Assembly: GCA_029266945.1 (NCBI GenBank)
Contig: JARIED010000008.1
Span: 1-64,000, forward strand
Source: Slackia sp.
GTDB lineage: Bacteria; Actinomycetota; Coriobacteriia; Coriobacteriales; Eggerthellaceae
DNA length: 64,000 nt
Direction of reading: 5' to 3'
The notes below the pieces were generated by a model. It saw only the letters and a program-made list of their open reading frames with translations, was not told where the DNA came from and did not search any database. Of the stretch, positions 2,913 through 12,609 are shown one piece after another. How positions within the stretch are numbered: position 1 is the stretch's first letter; each line of letters begins with the position of its first letter. Both the position numbers and the translations under genes were made by a program.

Positions 2913-2964
2913 CATGGGCCCTGTTTTCGTCGGCGCATCGTCCGCGAAGAAAACGGGGCCCATG
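2913..2964 (+). repeat. 20-bp inverted repeat upstream of ecfT
   Basis: Left arm 2913-2932 and right arm 2945-2964 pair over 20 bases with two non-Watson-Crick positions, including CATGGGCCC against GGGCCCATG. The loop is 12 bases. With the hairpin at 2868-2905 it forms a tandem stem-loop region between the surface-protein genes and the transporter genes. Confidence 0.6.
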
Positions 2965-3036
2965 GCGCGCATCGCCGGCCGCCTGTGTCGAGCCGGCGTT
3001 CGACGACGAGAAAAAGAAGGGAATGCGCATCCTCTT

Positions 3037-3903
3037 ATGCATCACGCGTTTTCGTCCTACCATCCCGCGGCGGCGTTCGCGTTCATCGTGAGCGCGGCCC
3101 TGCTTTCCATGGCCGCCATGCATCCCGTGTACGTGGCGCTTTCGCTCGCGGGCGCGCTCGCTGCGTCGATCGTACTGCGCGGCGCCCGTCAAACCGCGCG
3201 CTCGCTGGCGTGGGTCGTGCCGATGTGTGCGATTATGGCCTGCGCGAACCCGTTGTTTTCCGCATCGGGCTCGACCGAGCTCTTTCGCGTCGGCGGCCTG
3301 GTCGTTTATGTCGAATCGGTCGTCTACGGCCTGTGCTCGGGCGGCATGTTCGCGGCGGTCTTTCTGTGGTTCGCTTCGTATGCCCGCTGCATGACCAGCG
3401 AGAATTCGCTTGCGCTGCTGGGTAATATCGCGCCGACGGTGATGCTTATGGCATCGCAGGTGCTGCGTCTGGTTCCGCAATTCGTTTCGCGCGGCGTCTC
3501 GGTGGCCGCCGTGCAGGATGCGGCGAGCACCGCCGCCCCCGCCACGAAGCGCGATGCGGCGCAGGGCCGTTTCCGCATCGTATCGGTGTTGATGGAGTGG
3601 GGGATGGAGGACGGCATCGGCCGGACCGACGCTATGAGGGCTCGCGGCTACGGCTGCGGGGCGCGTCGCACCACGTACAAGCGTTATCGCTTTGGGCCGA
3701 CCGATGCCGCGCTGACGGCGCTGATCGTCGCTTTGGCGGCGTTGAACGCGGGCCTGATCGCGGCCGCGTGCTCGGCCTACGAGTTCTATCCCGTGATGAC
3801 CCCGCTGCATATGCAGGCGGGCTATGCGGCTTATGCCGTGTTTTTGGCAATTCCGATCGTGCTGCAGGCGAAGGAGTGGTGGCAGTGGCGTTCATTGAAG
3901 TAG
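3037..3903 (+). CDS. ecfT: ECF transporter transmembrane (T) component
   Basis: 288 aa from the ATG at 3037. This start is chosen because the protein then begins with the family-like YHPAAAF segment ahead of the first membrane helix; an earlier in-frame ATG (2914) falls inside a hairpin arm, and the GA-rich stretch at 3014-3022 is a weak, distant RBS. EcfT couples the two ATPase subunits to the substrate-binding S component in vitamin uptake. Several hydrophobic helices are followed by a cytoplasmic coupling region with the characteristic Ala-Arg-Gly motif (DAMRARGYG) near residue 207. The last bases overlap the start of the ATPase gene by 19 bases. Confidence 0.85.
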   Translation: MHHAFSSYHPAAAFAFIVSAALLSMAAMHPVYVALSLAGALAASIVLRGARQTARSLAWVVPMCAIMACANPLFSASGSTELFRVGGLVVYVESVVYGLCSGGMFAAVFLWFASYARCMTSENSLALLGNIAPTVMLMASQVLRLVPQFVSRGVSVAAVQDAASTAAPATKRDAAQGRFRIVSVLMEWGMEDGIGRTDAMRARGYGCGARRTTYKRYRFGPTDAALTALIVALAALNAGLIAAACSAYEFYPVMTPLHMQAGYAAYAVFLAIPIVLQAKEWWQWRSLK

Positions 3904-5369
3904 AAGGCTATTTCTTCGCGTATCCGCCTGCGGAAGGGCGGCCGTCCCGTTCGCGGGCCGGCGCCGACGAGCCCGCATGGGTTGTGCGTGACGTGGACTT
4001 TCAGGTGGAAGAGGGCGATTTCTGCGTGGTCGTGGGATCGACCGGCTGCGGCAAGACCACGTTGCTGCGCAGTCTGAAGCCCGAGCTTTCGCCTGTGGGA
4101 ACGCGCGCCGGGTCTGTGCGCGTGGCGGACCGCTCTCTTGTGGAGGACGGCGAAGTCGTGCGTGGCTTCACACCGCTGGAAAGCGCGTCTTCGATCGGGT
4201 ATGTGATGCAGGACCCCGGCGCCCAGATCGTCTGCGACACCGTGTGGCACGAGCTTGCCTTCGGGTTGGAAAATCTCGGCATTCCGCAGGACGAGATGCG
4301 TCGGCGCGTGGCAGAGGTCGCTCATTTCTTCGGTATCGAGCCGTGGGTGCGCAGCGATGTCGAATCGCTGTCTGGCGGCCAGCAGCAGCTGGTCAACCTG
4401 GCGGCCGTGCTGGCGCTGCGCCCGCAGCTCCTGCTGCTCGACGAGCCGACCGCCCAACTCGATCCCAACGCGCTCAAGCGCTTCCTGTTCATGCTCGCGC
4501 GCGTGAACAGAGAGCTCGGCATCACGGTGGTCATGGCGACCCATGCCCCCGAAGACGTATCCGCGTACGCGACGCGTGTGATCGAGTTGCAGCCTTTGGG
4601 CGCGGCCGCGTCGCGCGAAGAGGCCGAAGCGAAGGTCGCCCCGCGCAGGAGGGCGCGCCGCGAGGAATCAGCGTCGGCGGGGGCCGCGATCGAGGTGCGC
4701 GACGCGTTTGTGCGCTACGATCGTCAGGCGCCTTGGGTGCTGCGCGGCATGGACCTGCGCGTGCGCCGCGGTAGCGTGCATGCGCTCGTCGGCGGCAACG
4801 GATGCGGCAAATCGACGCTGCTCAAGCTGATGGCGGGCATTCTGCGACCGCAGCGCGGCAGCGTGAAAAACGCGTTGGCGGGCTCTCAGGCCCTGATGCC
4901 GCAAGACCCCAAGGCCCTGTTCGTATGCGACAGCGTGGCCGAAGAACTGCACGAATGGAGCGCGCGCTGCGGCTACGGCGAAGACGACGAGGCCGAGGCG
5001 CTGCGCCGTTTCGGGCTCGCGAAGCATGCCGCGCAGCATCCGTACGACCTGTCGGGCGGCCAGCAGCAGAAGCTCGCTTTCGCGAAGCTGCTGCTCACGG
5101 GCGCGCGTCTGCTGTTTTTGGACGAGCCTACCAAGGGCCTGGACCCTGCGTCGTGTGCCGACGCGTCGCGCATCGTGCGTGCGCTGGCCGACGAGGGGCG
5201 CACGGTCGTCATCGTGACGCACGACCTCGATTTCGCGCTGGTGACGGCCGACGATGTGTCGATGCTCTTCGACGGCGAGATGGCCTGCACCGAAGACGCG
5301 GAAGAATTCTTCGCGAACAACCTGGTCTACCGTCCGAACGCGCAGGCGCACCTGTTCGGGGAGGTCTAG
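3885..5369 (+). CDS. ecfA: ECF transporter ATPase with two ABC domains (EcfA-EcfA' fusion)
   Basis: 494 aa from a GTG at 3885, preceded by AAGGAG at 3871-3876; it overlaps the end of ecfT by 19 bases, indicating translational coupling. Two complete ABC ATPase domains lie in tandem: Walker A GSTGCGKTT (about residue 51) with signature LSGGQQQLV, then Walker A GGNGCGKST (about residue 304) with signature LSGGQQQKLA. Both have Walker B LLLDEPT/LFLDEPT. The protein powers uptake by the ECF complex. A single-chain double ATPase replaces the usual EcfA/EcfA' heterodimer; such fusions are known in Actinobacteria. Confidence 0.92.
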   Translation: MAFIEVEGYFFAYPPAEGRPSRSRAGADEPAWVVRDVDFQVEEGDFCVVVGSTGCGKTTLLRSLKPELSPVGTRAGSVRVADRSLVEDGEVVRGFTPLESASSIGYVMQDPGAQIVCDTVWHELAFGLENLGIPQDEMRRRVAEVAHFFGIEPWVRSDVESLSGGQQQLVNLAAVLALRPQLLLLDEPTAQLDPNALKRFLFMLARVNRELGITVVMATHAPEDVSAYATRVIELQPLGAAASREEAEAKVAPRRRARREESASAGAAIEVRDAFVRYDRQAPWVLRGMDLRVRRGSVHALVGGNGCGKSTLLKLMAGILRPQRGSVKNALAGSQALMPQDPKALFVCDSVAEELHEWSARCGYGEDDEAEALRRFGLAKHAAQHPYDLSGGQQQKLAFAKLLLTGARLLFLDEPTKGLDPASCADASRIVRALADEGRTVVIVTHDLDFALVTADDVSMLFDGEMACTEDAEEFFANNLVYRPNAQAHLFGEV

Positions 5370-6134
5370 ATGGGTTCGCGAAAGCATGCGGCGCAGACGC
5401 CCGACGCGCGCGCCGTGCGCACGTCGGGCCGGCTGCGGTTGCGCGTATTCCCCCTTCTCGCCGAGGCGTTCGCCGTGGGCGCGGTGCCTGCGGTGCTTAT
5501 CGCCTGCGCCTGGTACGGCGTCGAGCAGACGGCGCTCGTCAGCATGGTCGTGGTGGCGTGCGCGCTGCTGCTGTTCTTCGCGGGCTACGAGGCAAGCCGC
5601 CCGCGTTTGCGCGATATCATGCCCGTTGCGGTGCTCGCCGCGCTTGCCGCGGCGGGCCGTATCCTGTTCGCGCCGTTTCCGAGCTTCAAGCCCGTGTCGG
5701 CCATCGCGATCATCGCGGGTGCCGTGTTCGGGCGGCGCAGCGGCTTTTTGGTGGGTGCGCTCGCGGCCCTGGCCTCGAATTTCTTCTTCGGGCAGGGGCC
5801 TTGGACCCCGTGGCAGATGTATGCGTGGGGCATGATCGGCTACGGAGCCGGGCTGCTTGCCCAGGCCGGGCTCGAGAAGAGCCTTCCGATCATGTGCTGC
5901 TACGGGTTTGCCTCGGGCTTCGGCTACGGCGTGGTTTTGAATACGTGGAGCATCGTGGGCTTCTTCCATCCCGAAAGCCTGGTGCAGGCGTTTGCGGTCT
6001 ATGCCGCGGCATTGCCCTTCGATGCCACGCACGCTGTGGCGACGGTCGCGTTCCTCTCGGCGCTCTATGCCCCGTGGCGGCGCAAGTTGGCGCGCATCGG
6101 ACGCAAATACGCGCTGTGCGAGCGCACGTCGTGA
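5370..6134 (+). CDS. ECF transporter S component, CbrT-like (predicted cobalamin)
   Basis: 254 aa, starting at the base after the ATPase stop. A basic N-terminus precedes six or so membrane helices. Segments such as FAPFPSFKP, GAVFGRRSGF and FFGQGPWTPWQMYAWG match the pattern I recall for the cobalamin-type S components (CbrT/CblT group). In ECF systems this subunit binds the vitamin and topples in the membrane to release it inside. Substrate assignment rests on these motifs and on the adjacent DUF4430 proteins and could be another vitamin or precursor. Confidence 0.72.
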   Translation: MGSRKHAAQTPDARAVRTSGRLRLRVFPLLAEAFAVGAVPAVLIACAWYGVEQTALVSMVVVACALLLFFAGYEASRPRLRDIMPVAVLAALAAAGRILFAPFPSFKPVSAIAIIAGAVFGRRSGFLVGALAALASNFFFGQGPWTPWQMYAWGMIGYGAGLLAQAGLEKSLPIMCCYGFASGFGYGVVLNTWSIVGFFHPESLVQAFAVYAAALPFDATHAVATVAFLSALYAPWRRKLARIGRKYALCERTS

Positions 6135-6236
6135 TATGGTATGCGCCGCCGAGGCTTCGCGACGATGCGCCGGGGCCCGGATCGCAGAATGAAGGAACCG
6201 GCCGTTTGAGAGCCGAACGGGCAAGGAGCGAAGGCT

Positions 6237-6620
6237 ATGACGGAAATAGTCATCGGAGGGTTCGTCGCGGCGGCGTGCCTGATATCGGCGGTCGTGCTGT
6301 TTTCGGGGCGCGGCGTGTTCATGGTGGCGACGCTGAACCGCATGGATCCCGCCGAGCGCGAAGAGTCTTACGACGTGCCGCGCGCCTGCAAGGCGACGGG
6401 CGTGTTCGCACTGGTCGCAGGCATTGCCGTGCTCGTATTCATCGCGTTGAAGTACGTCGCGCTGACGAGCGCGCCGCTCGATGCGGTGCTTCCCGTCTAT
6501 ACGGTCGCGATGATCGTTGCGATCATCGCATCGCTCGTATGGAGCGTGTCCCATATCGAGAAGCGCTGCAAGAAGGAAGTGCGCGGGAAGAAGAAATCGA
6601 AGAAGAAAAACGCTCGTTAG
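6237..6620 (+). CDS. Small DUF3784-like membrane protein
   Basis: 127 aa, ATG at 6237 with AAGGAG at 6222-6227. Three predicted membrane helices (about residues 4-24, 52-74, 81-103), a GRGVFMVATLNRMDPAERE segment after helix 1 resembling the loop of DUF3784 proteins, and a strongly basic C-terminal tail (KKKSKKKNAR). It follows the S-component gene by 102 bases in the same direction, so it may be the last gene of the ECF operon or separate. No function is known for the family. Confidence 0.6.
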   Translation: MTEIVIGGFVAAACLISAVVLFSGRGVFMVATLNRMDPAEREESYDVPRACKATGVFALVAGIAVLVFIALKYVALTSAPLDAVLPVYTVAMIVAIIASLVWSVSHIEKRCKKEVRGKKKSKKKNAR

Positions 6621-6662: not shown

Positions 6663-6822
6663 GAAAAGGCCTTTAGAGGCGTATTTATGCGATATAGTTT
6701 GAATTCAGCGGTCGAGCATCGACTTTCATGCATCAATGAGACGATATTCCGAGGCAATATCGCGCTTTAGTGTGATAGACTAGCTCGAACTGCCGGTATG
6801 CAGTGCATACGATACCGCGCGC

Positions 6823-6844
6823 GATCGCCTTCGGGCGATTTTTC
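6823..6844 (+). terminator. C(UUCG)G tetraloop terminator in the permease leader
   Basis: A stem of about 7 bp closes on a C(TTCG)G loop (6829-6834) and is followed by five T. It stands about 80 bases before the permease start codon, in the transcribed leader if the promoter is upstream of it. Confidence 0.55.
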
Positions 6845-6925: not shown

Positions 6926-8275
6926 ATGTCGTCTGAATCAGAAGCCATGAGCTTCGAAACCGAGGGAATGCATATCGACGAATCCCAGCGTAAGGGCATT
7001 CTGCCGCTCACGGTCATCTGGGTCAGCAACGCATTCAACGTCTCGACGCTCATGACGGGCGCGGTTCTCGGCGCCGCACTGACTTTGGGCGATAGCTTCA
7101 TCGCCGCCTTCGTCGGCTTCGGCATCATCACGGCCTATATGGTGCTCGTGGCCATGCAGGCCGCGGACCTGGGACTTCCCACGTCTGCGCTTTCGACCGC
7201 CGCGTTGGGCAAGACGGGCGGGCGCTACCTGATCAGCGCCGTGGTGGGCTTGGCGCTCATCGGCTGGTTCGGCGTGCAAGCGGCCGTGTGCGGCTCGTCG
7301 TTCTCGATCGCGCTCGCCGAAATCACCGGATTCGAAATACCTGTCTGGGCCTCGTCGGTCGTGCTCGGCGGGCTCATGCTGGCCACGGCCGTGTTCGGCT
7401 TCGACGGCGTGAAATGGGTCAATTACATCGCGCTGCCCATGCTCTTTCTCATCTGCATGTACGGCCTGGTCGTCTCCCTAGCGGGCACTGGCGTCGACAG
7501 CGTCTTCGATTATGTTCCCGCCGAAGGCATGGGCCTGGTCGCGGGCATCAACATCTCGGTCGGCCTGTTCGCGCTCGGCGGCGCCACCATCGGCGATTTC
7601 ACCCGCTACGCGAAAAGCCGCCGCGACGCCGTAGTCTCTTCGGCCGCGGGCGTGTGGCCCGCGAACGTGTTCGTGATGATGATCGGCGCCGTGCTGGCCA
7701 TCGTTGTTCCCGAATCGGGCGGCGACATCACGCTGATCATGGCGGGTCTCGGCCTGGCCGTGGTGGGCATGGTGGCGCTCGTGGCGAGCACCTGGACCGT
7801 CAACGTGAGCAACGCCTATTCGGCGGGCCTGGCCTTCGCGGTCATGCTGGGCAAGGGCGAGCGCGGCTACAAGACGGCCACGCTCGTGTCGGGTGTCGTC
7901 GGCATCGTTCTGGCGGCCGTGGGCATCATGGACCACTTCACGTTCTTCCTCACGCTGCTTTCGGCCATGATCCCCGCGCTGGCGGGCTCGATGATCGCCG
8001 ACTACTGGCTGGTGCGCAAGGCGCGTCCCGAGAACTTCAAGCCTCTCGACGGCGTGTCGGTGCCCGGCATCGTGAGTTTCGTCGCGGGCTCGGCGGTCGC
8101 TATGGTCACGGGCGGCACGTTCGCGGGCACGGCGCTCGCGTTCTTCGACATCCCGTTCTTGCTGGGCCCCGTCAACGGCATCGCGGTCTCCATGGCGCTG
8201 TACGTGCTCATCTACAAAGCCATGAAACTTCCCGCTTTCGAGGGTCCCATCCAGTTCAAGACGCCGCAGCGCTAG
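6926..8275 (+). CDS. NCS1-family permease (cytosine/hydantoin-type)
   Basis: 449 aa from ATG 6926, with a strong AAAGGAGG at 6912-6919. About twelve hydrophobic helices, with the family's first-helix pattern (SNAFNVSTLMTGAVLGAAL). The NCS1 family imports nucleobases and related compounds, including cytosine (CodB), allantoin and hydantoins (Mhp1), with H+ or Na+. By sequence it looks closest to the CodB branch, but no cytosine deaminase is near. It heads an operon with two DUF917 proteins and a HyuA-like protein, so the likely cargo is a hydantoin-like or other N-heterocyclic compound. Family call is firm; substrate is inference. Confidence 0.85.
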   Translation: MSSESEAMSFETEGMHIDESQRKGILPLTVIWVSNAFNVSTLMTGAVLGAALTLGDSFIAAFVGFGIITAYMVLVAMQAADLGLPTSALSTAALGKTGGRYLISAVVGLALIGWFGVQAAVCGSSFSIALAEITGFEIPVWASSVVLGGLMLATAVFGFDGVKWVNYIALPMLFLICMYGLVVSLAGTGVDSVFDYVPAEGMGLVAGINISVGLFALGGATIGDFTRYAKSRRDAVVSSAAGVWPANVFVMMIGAVLAIVVPESGGDITLIMAGLGLAVVGMVALVASTWTVNVSNAYSAGLAFAVMLGKGERGYKTATLVSGVVGIVLAAVGIMDHFTFFLTLLSAMIPALAGSMIADYWLVRKARPENFKPLDGVSVPGIVSFVAGSAVAMVTGGTFAGTALAFFDIPFLLGPVNGIAVSMALYVLIYKAMKLPAFEGPIQFKTPQR

Positions 8276-8390
8276 GCGCGCGGCATTCCTCCGGCATCAG
8301 GGCGTTCGCGCATCCGCGAGGGCGCCTTCCGCATATATGAAAGTTCCGTCCGCGCAGTCGGACGAAGAAGAAGAAGGAAAGGACATCGAC

Positions 8391-9491
8391 GTGCGCACGA
8401 TAGGTTTGGAAGATATCGACGACATCGCGCTCGGCTCGTCGCTCCTCGGATCGGGCGGTGGCGGCGACCCGTATATGGGCCGCCTCGAAGCTATCGCCGC
8501 GGTGAAGGAATACGGCCCGGTGACGCTGCTCGACACGGACGAGGTGCCCGATGATTGGACGGTCGCGCCCATCTGCGGCGTGGGCGCCCCGAGCGTGTCG
8601 CTCGAGAAAGGCACCAACGGCGTTGAATATCCCAAGGTGCGCGCAATGATGGAGCGCATGCTGGGCAAGAAGCTCGACGCGTTCCTGCTTTCCGAAGCGG
8701 GCGGCATGAACTCCATGGTTCCGATCAGCGCCGCGGCGCGCGCCGGCCTGCCCTTGATCAACGCCGACGGCATGGGCCGCGCGTTCCCGGGCATCCAGCA
8801 GGACACGTTCACGCTCAACGGCGTGTCCACCAACCCGTTCATCATCGCCGACGAAAAGGGCAACTGCACGGTGCTCTACACCATCGACAACGATTGGACC
8901 GAATCGATCGGCCGCGAGATCACCACGGCCTCGGGCGGCCAGGTGACCACGCTCGCATCGCCGATGACGGGCGCCAAGATGAAGACGAGCGTCGTGAAGG
9001 GCACGGTCGATTACGCCCAGAAGCTCGGCCGTATCATCCGCACCGCCTCCGACGCCCAGGGCGAGAACCCTGAAACGTACTTCCTGCGCGAAAGCGGCGC
9101 GCTGCGCTTCTTCAAGGGCAAGATCTGCGACGTGCTGCGCGAGACGCGTGACGGCTTCAACTTCGGCAAGGTGACGCTCGAAGGAATCGCGGAGGACAAG
9201 GGCCGCGAGGCGGTGGTCGAGTTCCAGAACGAGAACATATACGCCGAGGTGGACGGCGAAATCGTGGCGACGGTTCCCGACCTGATCTGCCTGGTCGATT
9301 CCGAGACGTTCGTGCCGGTGACCACCGAGAACCTCAAGTACGGCAAGCGCGTGCTGGTGGTGGGCCTGCCGTGCGACCCGGCGTGGCGCACCGAAGGCGG
9401 CCTGGAGCTGGCCGGTCCGCGCTGGTTCGGACTCGACGTCGATTACGTTCCGGTGGAAGAGCGCGTATCTGCAAGGGGGAACAATGCGTAA
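8391..9491 (+). CDS. DUF917 family protein, first copy
   Basis: 366 aa from a GTG at 8391 with GGAAAGGA just upstream; this start aligns with the N-terminus of the second copy, whereas an in-frame ATG at 8337 would add 18 acidic residues with no counterpart. The glycine-rich block GSGGGGDPYMG near residue 20 and the segments GGMNSM and DADGMGRAFP typify the family, whose N-terminal domain Pfam names S-methyl-thiohydantoin desulfurase. Such genes commonly accompany HyuA-type hydantoinase/oxoprolinases. The next gene begins inside its last codons (8-base overlap). The exact reaction is unknown. Confidence 0.8.
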   Translation: MRTIGLEDIDDIALGSSLLGSGGGGDPYMGRLEAIAAVKEYGPVTLLDTDEVPDDWTVAPICGVGAPSVSLEKGTNGVEYPKVRAMMERMLGKKLDAFLLSEAGGMNSMVPISAAARAGLPLINADGMGRAFPGIQQDTFTLNGVSTNPFIIADEKGNCTVLYTIDNDWTESIGREITTASGGQVTTLASPMTGAKMKTSVVKGTVDYAQKLGRIIRTASDAQGENPETYFLRESGALRFFKGKICDVLRETRDGFNFGKVTLEGIAEDKGREAVVEFQNENIYAEVDGEIVATVPDLICLVDSETFVPVTTENLKYGKRVLVVGLPCDPAWRTEGGLELAGPRWFGLDVDYVPVEERVSARGNNA

Positions 9492-10572
9492 GCTGGGCAT
9501 ACAGGACATCGAAGATATCGCCCTCGGCGCCGCGCTTCTGGGCGCGGGCGGCGGCGGGGACCCTTATATCGGCAAGCTGACCGCCATAGGCGCGGTGAAG
9601 GAATGCGGCGAGGTCGACCTGGTCGACATCGACGAGCTCGACGACGACGCCGTGGTGGTTCCCGTGGCGTCGGTGGGCGCGCCCACGATTTTGACCGAGA
9701 AGGCCGTCGGCGCCAACGAGTTCGCCAAGCTGCTCGACATGATCGAGACCTATTACGGCAAGAAGGCCGCGGCCGTCATGCCGATCGAGGCGGGCGGCGT
9801 GAACTCCATGCTGCCGATCGCCGCGGCGGCGCGTCTGGGCCTTCCTATGGTCGATGCCGACGGCATGGGCCGCGCATTCCCCGAGATCCAGATGGTCACC
9901 TTCACCATCGGCGGCCAGAGCGCGAGCCCGATGATCTTCATCGATGAGAAGGGCAACCTCGGCCTGATGGAGACGGTCACCAACAAGTGGGTAGAAACCG
10001 TGTGTCGCGCCGGCTGCACCGCATGCGGCGGATCGGTCTTGAGCGTCGAATACGTCATGGAGGCGCGCGTCGTCAAGGAGTTCGGCGTGAAGGGCATCGT
10101 GACGCGCTCGCAGGAGCTCGGCCGCACGATTCGCGCGATTAAGAACTGTCCCGACGGCATGACGCCCGAACGGTACTTCCTCGAATACACCAAGGGCCAC
10201 CGCCTGTTCAAGGGCAAGATCGCCGACCTGGTGCGCGAGACGCGCGGCGGCTTCAATTTCGGCCGCGTGGTGCTCGACGGTATCGGCGAAGACAAAGGCC
10301 GCAGCGCCTTCGTCGAGTTCCAGAACGAGAACCTGGCCTGCACGGTGGAGGGTTCGGTCGTGGCCACCACGCCCGACTTGATCTGCCTGGTGGATACGGA
10401 GACGTTCATGCCCATTCCCACCGATGCGCTCAAATACGGCAAGCGCGTGTTGGCCGTGGGTCTGCCGTGCTTCCATCTGTGGCGCACGCCCGCAGGCCTC
10501 GAGCTGGCCGGCCCGCGCTATTTCGGCCTCGACGCGGACTACGTTCCCGTCGAAGAGCGCTGTGCGCAGTAG
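9484..10572 (+). CDS. DUF917 family protein, second copy
   Basis: 362 aa, ATG 9484, overlapping the previous gene by 8 bases, with AAGGGGG just ahead as RBS. It is clearly paralogous to the first copy along its whole length (shared GGGGDPY, EAGG.NSM, DADGMGRAFP, FKGKI, VRETR.GFNFG, PDLICLVD.ETF, YGKRVL.VGLPC, YVPVEER). The tight overlap suggests equimolar production and possibly a hetero-oligomer in which the two copies have diverged. No signal peptide, so cytoplasmic. Function is inferred only from family and operon context. Confidence 0.8.
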   Translation: MRKLGIQDIEDIALGAALLGAGGGGDPYIGKLTAIGAVKECGEVDLVDIDELDDDAVVVPVASVGAPTILTEKAVGANEFAKLLDMIETYYGKKAAAVMPIEAGGVNSMLPIAAAARLGLPMVDADGMGRAFPEIQMVTFTIGGQSASPMIFIDEKGNLGLMETVTNKWVETVCRAGCTACGGSVLSVEYVMEARVVKEFGVKGIVTRSQELGRTIRAIKNCPDGMTPERYFLEYTKGHRLFKGKIADLVRETRGGFNFGRVVLDGIGEDKGRSAFVEFQNENLACTVEGSVVATTPDLICLVDTETFMPIPTDALKYGKRVLAVGLPCFHLWRTPAGLELAGPRYFGLDADYVPVEERCAQ

Positions 10573-10647
10573 CCCTGCAAAACGGGCCGCGCTGCGCCCC
10601 TGATTGGACGATGCGCCCTTCGCGGCGTTTTGAAAGAGGAGGAACCA

Positions 10648-12201
10648 ATGTATAAACTCGGCATCGACGTCGGCGGCACCAACACCGACGCGGTTTTGAT
10701 CGACGAGGACCTGAATGTGGCGGCGGCCATCAAGAACCCTACGTCGGGCGATATCTACGAGGGCATCATGGGAGCGGTCGACGCCGTGCTGGCCGAAAGC
10801 GGCGTCGATCCGGCCGAAATCGGCCAGGCGATGCTCGGCACCACGCAGTGCACCAACGCCATCGTCGAGCGCAAGAGCCTGGCCCCGATCGCCATCCTGC
10901 GCATCGGCGCGCCTGCCTCCGTTGGCATTCCGCCGATGGTCGACTGGGCAGACGATATCGCATCCGTCGCGGTCGATTCCGCCATTATCGGCGGCGGCTT
11001 CGAATACGACGGCAAACGTCTGGCCGAATTCGACGAGGCGGCCTGCCGGGCGTTTTTCGAAGGCGTGAAGGGCAAGGTGGGCGCCGTGGCCATCAGCTGC
11101 GTGTTCTCCGGCGTGCGCAATGACGATGAGCTCGTTGCTGCGCAGATCGCCCGCGAGGTGCTCGGCGAGGACATCCACGTGTCCATCTCGTCTGAAATCG
11201 GATCGATGGGCTTGGTCGAGCGCGAGAACGCCACCATTCTCAACGCCGCTCTGCACGAGGTGGCCAAGCGCTTCACCGAGGGCTTCGCGAAAAGCCTTGC
11301 CGAGCGCGGCATCATGAAAGCCGACGTGTATCTGTCTCAGAACGACGGCACGCTCATGACTATCGAGCATGCCCGCCAGTACCCGATTCTCACTATCGCA
11401 TGCGGCCCCACCAACTCCATCCGCGGCGCGAGCTATCTGTCCAAGATGGAAGACGCCATCGTCATCGACGTGGGCGGTACCACCACCGACCTGGGCGTTC
11501 TGCAGAGCGGCTTCCCGCGCGAGAGCGGCGTCGCGGTGACGATCGGCGGCGTGCGCACGAATTTCCGCATGCCTGACGTCATCTCGATCGGCCTGGGTGG
11601 CGGCTCGATCGTGCGCGAACGCGAGGACGGCCGCGTCACCGTGGGTCCCGATTCGGTGGGCTATGAAATCACCAAGCACGCGCTCGTCTTCGGCGGCGAT
11701 GTCATGACGGCCACCGACATCGCGGTGCGTCTGGGCATGGCCGAGGTGGGCGACGTTTCCAAGGTCGCGCATATCGATGAGGCCTTCGCCAATAAGGCGC
11801 TCGACGCCATGCGCGAACTGGTGGAAGAGGGCATCGACATGATGAAGGTGTCTAACGACGACATCGACGCCATCCTGGTGGGCGGCGGCTGCATTATTTT
11901 ACCGACCGATCTGGCAGGCACGGCCGAATGCGTGAAACCAGAGCATTCCGGCTGCGCGAACGCGATCGGCTCGGCCATCTCCAAGGTGAGCGGCACGTAC
12001 GAGGCCCTCGTCGATTATGACGTGACGCCGCGCGAGCAGGCTTTGGCGGCCGCACGCGCCGCAGCCATCGACCAGGCGGTCGAGGCGGGTGCCATCCGCG
12101 AGACGGTGGAGGTCATCGACTCCGAGGACGTGCCGCTGCAGTACTATCCCGGCCACACCAACCGCGTGAAGGTGAAGGCCGCTGGCGACCTGGCGCAATA
12201 G
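10648..12201 (+). CDS. Hydantoinase/oxoprolinase family protein (HyuA-like, short form)
   Basis: 517 aa from ATG 10648, RBS AAAGAGGAGG at 10633-10642. The N-terminal LGIDVGGTNTDAVLID motif is the phosphate-binding loop of the ASKHA-fold HyuA/oxoprolinase subunit; a second DVGGTTTDLGVL motif lies near residue 273. Members cleave cyclic amides such as hydantoins or 5-oxoproline with ATP. It is shorter than the usual HyuA (about 680-700 aa), and no HyuB partner is present; this short form typically travels with DUF917 genes. Last gene of the permease-DUF917-DUF917 operon, ended by strong terminators. Substrate unknown. Confidence 0.82.
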   Translation: MYKLGIDVGGTNTDAVLIDEDLNVAAAIKNPTSGDIYEGIMGAVDAVLAESGVDPAEIGQAMLGTTQCTNAIVERKSLAPIAILRIGAPASVGIPPMVDWADDIASVAVDSAIIGGGFEYDGKRLAEFDEAACRAFFEGVKGKVGAVAISCVFSGVRNDDELVAAQIAREVLGEDIHVSISSEIGSMGLVERENATILNAALHEVAKRFTEGFAKSLAERGIMKADVYLSQNDGTLMTIEHARQYPILTIACGPTNSIRGASYLSKMEDAIVIDVGGTTTDLGVLQSGFPRESGVAVTIGGVRTNFRMPDVISIGLGGGSIVREREDGRVTVGPDSVGYEITKHALVFGGDVMTATDIAVRLGMAEVGDVSKVAHIDEAFANKALDAMRELVEEGIDMMKVSNDDIDAILVGGGCIILPTDLAGTAECVKPEHSGCANAIGSAISKVSGTYEALVDYDVTPREQALAAARAAAIDQAVEAGAIRETVEVIDSEDVPLQYYPGHTNRVKVKAAGDLAQ

Positions 12202-12221
12202 CCGTTTCGCACGCTTGAAGA

Positions 12222-12254
12222 AGGGCCTCCGGCTTCGCGTCGGAGGCCCTTTCG
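12222..12254 (+). terminator. Rho-independent terminator after the HyuA-like gene
   Basis: Perfect 10-bp stem (AGGGCCTCCG 12222-12231, CGGAGGCCCT 12241-12250) with a 9-base loop and a short T-rich tail. Confidence 0.85.
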
Positions 12255-12284
12255 CTATCGAGCGGCGCTTCGGGAGCGTTCTTT

Positions 12285-12316
12285 GGAAAAAAGAGGCCGC
12301 TGCGGCCATTTTTTCG
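12285..12316. terminator. Second, bidirectional terminator-like hairpin
   Basis: GGCCGC and GCGGCC arms around a single T, flanked by a run of A on the left and six T on the right, so either strand would give a stem followed by U. It lies 30 bases after the first terminator. Confidence 0.65.
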
Positions 12317-12609
12317 AGGGTTTGCCACGAATGGACGTGCCGCCCTGCCTTGGCGCGTTCTTTTATTCTACATTTATCATTTAGATGAGTATTAAAGAGC
12401 ATCCTGAAGCAACAATGGGGCGTCTTCGGGGCTTCGCGCGTGGCAGAGCTTCGATTTTTCGGCTTCATGTCGCTGATTTTTCCAAAATACCGGCGGCCGT
12501 TCTGTTGAAGCTGTAACGAATGGCCGCTGAAACGCGTCGCACGCTTGCCTGCGGGTATCATGCGGAATCGACGATGCGGCCGAGGCGCGGCCGCGAAAGC
12601 GAGGTTTTC

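Follow-up and report, generated by a model that had tools for sequence, protein, structure and literature searches.

The window examined here, a stretch of 64,000 nucleotides of the Slackia sp. genome, carries a four-gene operon encoding an NCS1 carrier, two DUF917 proteins (DUF917-A and DUF917-B) and a short HyuA, and the linkage between NCS1, DUF917 and short HyuA genes is strongly conserved. We tentatively propose, with somewhat less than even confidence, that its products take up a small cyclic ureide, imide or lactam and open the ring by ATP-dependent hydrolysis, through HyuA and DUF917-B, with DUF917-A as an altered partner. The Pfam matches agreed with the four genes, families and coordinates given in the first-pass annotation, and the features of the region are as follows.

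6824..6843, + strand: leader hairpin (ATCGCC-TTCG-GGCGAT) followed by a short T run, aligned in four Slackia upstream regions
6926..8275, + strand: NCS1 carrier of the CodB/Mhp1 family, 449 aa (PF02133, 4e-30)
8391..9491, + strand: DUF917-A (S-Me-THD-like), derived paralogue (PF06032 and PF20906)
9484..10572, + strand: DUF917-B, corresponding to the single-copy form in Clostridia and Treponema (PF06032 and PF20906; fold match 2o3i)
10648..12201, + strand: short HyuA, an ASKHA ATPase, 517 aa (PF05378 and PF01968)
about 12221..12251, + strand: strong hairpin 3' of HyuA, probable terminator (MFE z-score -4.1 for 12195-12320)
12295..12307, + strand: second terminator-like hairpin and T run 3' of HyuA

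The four genes lie in the same direction and are separated by 115, -8 and 75 nt, DUF917-A and DUF917-B overlapping by 8 nt. The best start for DUF917-A is the GTG at position 8391, behind GAAGGAAAGGA, with the ATG at 8337 as an alternative. Both DUF917 proteins matched PF06032 and PF20906 over nearly their full length, placing them in the DUF917/S-Me-THD-like superfamily, and HyuA matched Hydant_A_N, with Hydantoinase_A covered only at model positions 1-174 of 291. All four genes had dN/dS values of 0.03-0.21. Tight spacing, ribosome-binding sites and double terminators had been claimed for this operon; SD-like sequences were found upstream of its genes and two hairpins 3' of HyuA, but terminator-like sites over the whole region (8, versus 5.9 in shuffled sequences, sd 2.6) were not in clear excess. 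At positions 6750-6843, 5' of NCS1, an element (GCTTTAGTGTGATAGACTAGC) and the UUCG-loop hairpin with its short T run aligned across four Slackia genomes. This arrangement may correspond to a promoter plus attenuator, the leader hairpin between the conserved upstream element and NCS1 being a possible attenuator candidate. No structured RNA was detected in the window at Rfam gathering scores, and the phage records searched yielded no near match. Further upstream on the same strand (2914-6620) are genes for an ECF-type transporter (an ATPase with two ABC domains and an S component) and a DUF3784 protein, which fall outside the conserved operon. The closest relatives were Slackia species.

A scan of species genomes with DUF917-B yielded 31 loci, and a neighborhood check of 45 loci, partly picked by similarity, showed a short HyuA adjoining DUF917 in 41. 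The remaining four were three true desulfurases and one locus at a contig end in a Spirochaetaceae MAG. DUF917 was present in nine of 149 Actinomycetota genomes sampled by family HMM and, in the eight besides the Slackia source genome, every DUF917 was located beside a short HyuA or within an NCS1-A-B-HyuA run. Inside Eggerthellaceae the distribution was patchy (10 of 60 genomes). The distances between DUF917 proteins and those between HyuA proteins were correlated (r = 0.95, 34 pairs), a value that co-inheritance by itself would raise.

The NCS1-DUF917-short HyuA set was found in Clostridia, Bacilli, Treponema and Coriobacteriia, often with a PucR regulator upstream in many Bacilli and Clostridia, and in PLSDB records from Listeria, Enterococcus, Lactiplantibacillus, Limosilactobacillus, Planococcus, Parageobacillus and Peribacillus. 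The gene order is HyuA-DUF917-NCS1 in Burkholderiales, and ABC transporters accompany DUF917/HyuA in Mesorhizobium and Haloferax; the DUF917-HyuA pair is thus retained in Pseudomonadota and Haloferax with either NCS1 or ABC as the carrier. The NCS1-linked A-B tandem was found only in Eggerthellaceae and their kin, most relatives elsewhere carrying one DUF917, so NCS1-type operons do not generally contain a DUF917 pair. Nor is the set confined to the gut: food and environmental Lactobacillales and Bacillales have it on plasmids, and Pseudomonadota and a haloarchaeon have it with other carriers. In Enterococcus raffinosus, a megaplasmid (L041, 7030-18413) carries two complete tandem PucR-NCS1-DUF917-HyuA operons, flanked by D-proline reductase genes and selenium/selenocysteine genes. 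Genes of the Asp/Glu/hydantoin racemase family were observed near the operon in several relatives (L017:8770-9480, L022:3670-4419 and L042:19546-20289). The operon had been considered undescribed, and we found no characterized homologous operon in the open-licence literature. Genes of PucR-'cytosine permease'-DUF917-hydantoinase operons are named in passing in two studies (PMC7513527, PMC12915319); in the second, on hcpR and nitrosative stress, a table of expression changes lists the DUF917 and hydantoinase genes of Clostridioides difficile (CDR20291_1615-1617; PMC12915319).

The short HyuA retains the ATP phosphate motifs (DxGGT and D[VI]GGT) as P1 DVGGTNTD and P2 DVGGTTTD, together with Lys29. 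The phosphate-binding residues and an adenosine motif, GxxPGP, have been described for the caprolactamase subunit CapA (PMC8453981). GxxPGP is missing from the window HyuA and from 44 of the 45 HyuA-like proteins collected, the exception being a long Planococcus HyuA; a further, divergent Parageobacillus protein encoded next to a DUF917 (L042:7199-8590) also lacks the remaining motifs. HyuB (PF02538), the partner with the metal-binding tetrad in HyuAB-type enzymes, had been reported as absent, and indeed no match was obtained anywhere in the Slackia assembly (1.52 Mb, 39 contigs, 96% complete). Given the lack of both GxxPGP and HyuB, DUF917 is the likely hydrolytic partner of the short HyuA. 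The absence of GxxPGP and of part of the Hydantoinase_A domain speaks against amide phosphorylation by the short HyuA, which we propose with corresponding reserve.

The first-pass annotation had tentatively assigned the missing chemistry to the DUF917 pair. DUF917 remains the likely partner, but not as a pair: the existence of single-copy relatives indicates that one DUF917, of type B, suffices, DUF917-A being an extra copy with an altered motif. In all 13 A sequences, which come from Slackia, Eggerthella and further Eggerthellaceae or Coriobacteriia and include a few near-identical ones, otherwise near-invariant positions carry the replacements D124N, E134G and M137Q (B numbering), and the motif reads NxDGMGRAFPG(I/L)(Q/E)QDT rather than the DxDGMGRAFPE(I/L)QM of type B. 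DUF917-B retains the near-invariant residues; position 124 is Asp in all other HyuA-linked DUF917s examined and in three desulfurases, and position 134 is Glu in all other HyuA-linked DUF917s examined. In trees obtained by quick searches, A formed one clade (SH-aLRT 100) with a long stem, and B grouped with single-copy proteins from Clostridia and Treponema. A tree in which A and the Coriobacteriia B sequences were constrained together was not rejected (AU p 0.354), which is compatible with a local or an older duplication. Purifying selection on A (dN/dS 0.05-0.10) is as strong as that on B (0.06-0.20), so A is not decaying, and Eggerthellaceae loci with B but without A (L055, L057, L058 and L059) show that it is dispensable for the pathway. 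From its sequence, DUF917-A is probably a lineage-specific copy that acts as a non-catalytic or re-specialized partner; its active site appears to be altered, and it is possibly inactive.

The predicted model of DUF917-B aligned with CV_3147 (PDB 2o3i) over 335 residues (Z 39.2, rmsd 2.4, 28% identity), the only match to stand out for DUF917 in Foldseek and VIA-align. These searches, which could miss a remote resemblance, revealed none between the DUF917 and HyuB folds. No invariant Cys or His was found in DUF917; both results weigh against the proposed role of DUF917-B. Residue D124, altered only in the A copies, offers an immediate starting point for the study of DUF917 catalysis.

In the proposed reaction, NCS1 would bring the ring compound into the cell and the short HyuA would phosphorylate its ring carbonyl oxygen, yielding an activated imidoyl phosphate. 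This intermediate would be handed over to DUF917-B which, replacing the absent HyuB, would add water to the activated carbon and thereby open the ring. The desulfurase branch may offer a chemical parallel: the ring carbon attacked there would carry sulfur as its leaving group and, by analogy, phosphate in the HyuA-DUF917 reaction. Neither a hydantoinase/carbamoylase of the TIGR01879 type nor a D-hydantoinase above the cut-off was found in the genome. The product of a hydantoin would need another route in the absence of a carbamoylase, and a lactam or imide is therefore slightly favored as the substrate.

NCS1 carriers are known for nucleobases, hydantoins and allantoin. The Slackia carrier belongs to this family, with PF02133 above its cut-off and the solved relatives 7qoa and 2jln matched, and it was nearest to CodB by overall score. 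Gln105 of CodB contacts cytosine, and Gln121 and Asn318 of Mhp1 contact hydantoin (PMC9379551). Among the NCS1 proteins of these loci, Asn318 is kept in 43 of 43 and Gln121 in 40 of 43, CodB having Ala and Gly at these positions. The Slackia carrier has both residues, as judged by residue alignment with Asn318 aligned beside a gap, in agreement with the hydantoin-type carrier suggested previously. NCS1 proteins more distantly related to it, from the same loci, also have the pair, which may be a general family trait and so argues less for hydantoin than against cytosine.

An operon for cytosine or pyrimidine salvage, as implied by the common 'cytosine permease' annotation, would fit with CodB being the best solved relative of the carrier. 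We consider it very unlikely, because Gln105 is replaced with Leu in the Slackia carrier and is kept in none of the 43 NCS1 relatives, the carrier scored 188 bits against an equivalog cut-off of 326 for cytosine permeases, and the operon has no deaminase gene. A thiohydantoin substrate had been suggested from the family name, the Pfam DUF917 domains being named for desulfurase activity. On the NCBIfam desulfurase models NF058529 and NF058532 (cut-offs of 440 and 450 bits), DUF917-A and DUF917-B obtained only 86-118 bits, outside both families, whereas a true desulfurase from Neorhizobium passed with 596 bits. The close relatives of the latter adjoin genes for an amidohydrolase, a Zn hydrolase and a urocanate hydratase-like protein, with an aromatic amino acid ammonia-lyase additionally present at one locus and no HyuA; this neighborhood is that of ergothioneine breakdown. 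Urocanase is absent from the Slackia genome, and the operon has no urocanate hydratase-like or amidohydrolase gene. Many residues invariant in the HyuA-linked branch (e.g. E72-K73, E102, N107, D126 and E134) differ in desulfurases, key changes being E102Q, N107S, D126V and E134T. A thiohydantoin or ergothioneine-derived route was thus rejected on the cut-offs, the gene context and the missing urocanase, and a desulfurase operon is highly improbable.

The short HyuA might instead use ATP to activate DUF917 or act as its chaperone, in the manner of reactivases or of the activators of 2-hydroxyacyl-CoA dehydratases, with DUF917 alone catalytic. The missing GxxPGP motif is consistent with such a role, as are the desulfurase-branch DUF917 operons without HyuA and the presence of HgdC-type activators (Z about 15) and a diol dehydratase reactivase (Z 13.1) among the fold neighbors of the HyuA model (pLDDT 77). 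However, its best and longest fold matches were with substrate-phosphorylating HyuA-type subunits (acetophenone carboxylase alpha, Z 22.3; caprolactamase CapA, Z 21.7; acetone carboxylase, Z 19.6; N-methylhydantoinase, Z 18.3), extending over about 470 residues versus about 220 for activators, and the sequence matches agree, making an activator fairly unlikely. A second locus in the same genome (contig C37, about 58-70 kb; L007:510-11788) encodes a dipeptide-type ABC transporter, DUF917-X, HyuA2, DUF917-Y and DUF1177, and in other Eggerthellaceae the DUF1177/DUF917-Y/HyuA2 set sometimes adjoins an operon of the window type. At least two transporter types thus serve the DUF917-HyuA enzyme pair. 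This locus could point to a diketopiperazine (cyclic dipeptide) or some other heterocycle derived from peptides as the substrate, and clusters with cyclodipeptide-oxidase-like genes have been reported to be enriched in DUF917, hydantoin racemases and dipeptide ABC carriers (PMC11055893). The carrier of the window operon is nevertheless an NCS1 protein with no adjoining peptidase, and we regard such a substrate as unlikely. We retain ATP-dependent ring opening by HyuA and DUF917-B as the preferred reading.

More broadly, the short HyuA and DUF917 could form a class of their own, spread across phyla, among the ATP-dependent hydrolases that open rings, with DUF917 in the place of HyuB, in which the catalytically altered A copy added in Eggerthellaceae tunes or redirects the enzyme, an extension that we put forward with more reserve than the reaction itself. 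The gene set is found in several phyla and is also plasmid-borne, with Listeria, Enterococcus and lactic acid bacteria among its hosts, and its proteins bear no annotation beyond 'cytosine permease', 'DUF917' and 'hydantoinase'. Once a substrate is defined, many genomes would be re-annotated, and a gut catabolic route for nitrogen or ring compounds could come to light.

The Slackia operon shares its gene set with the PucR-'cytosine permease'-DUF917-hydantoinase operons of Lactobacillales, Listeria and Clostridia, but these have PucR, a single DUF917 and no A copy. HyuAB, 5-oxoprolinase and caprolactamase CapAB resemble it in their ASKHA-fold HyuA, ATP phosphate motifs and small-ring amide context, whereas the Slackia HyuA is short and lacks GxxPGP, there is no HyuB gene and DUF917 is the constant partner. 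The carrier is of the same family as Mhp1 (hydantoin) and CodB (cytosine); it keeps Gln121 and Asn318 of Mhp1 but is nearer to CodB in overall sequence. CV_3147, a structural-genomics entry with no function in its title, shares the DUF917 fold at 28% identity. The thiohydantoin and S-methyl thiohydantoin desulfurases have two Pfam domains in common with the Slackia DUF917 proteins, which nonetheless fall far under the curated cut-offs and differ in their conserved motif, their operon and the presence of HyuA.
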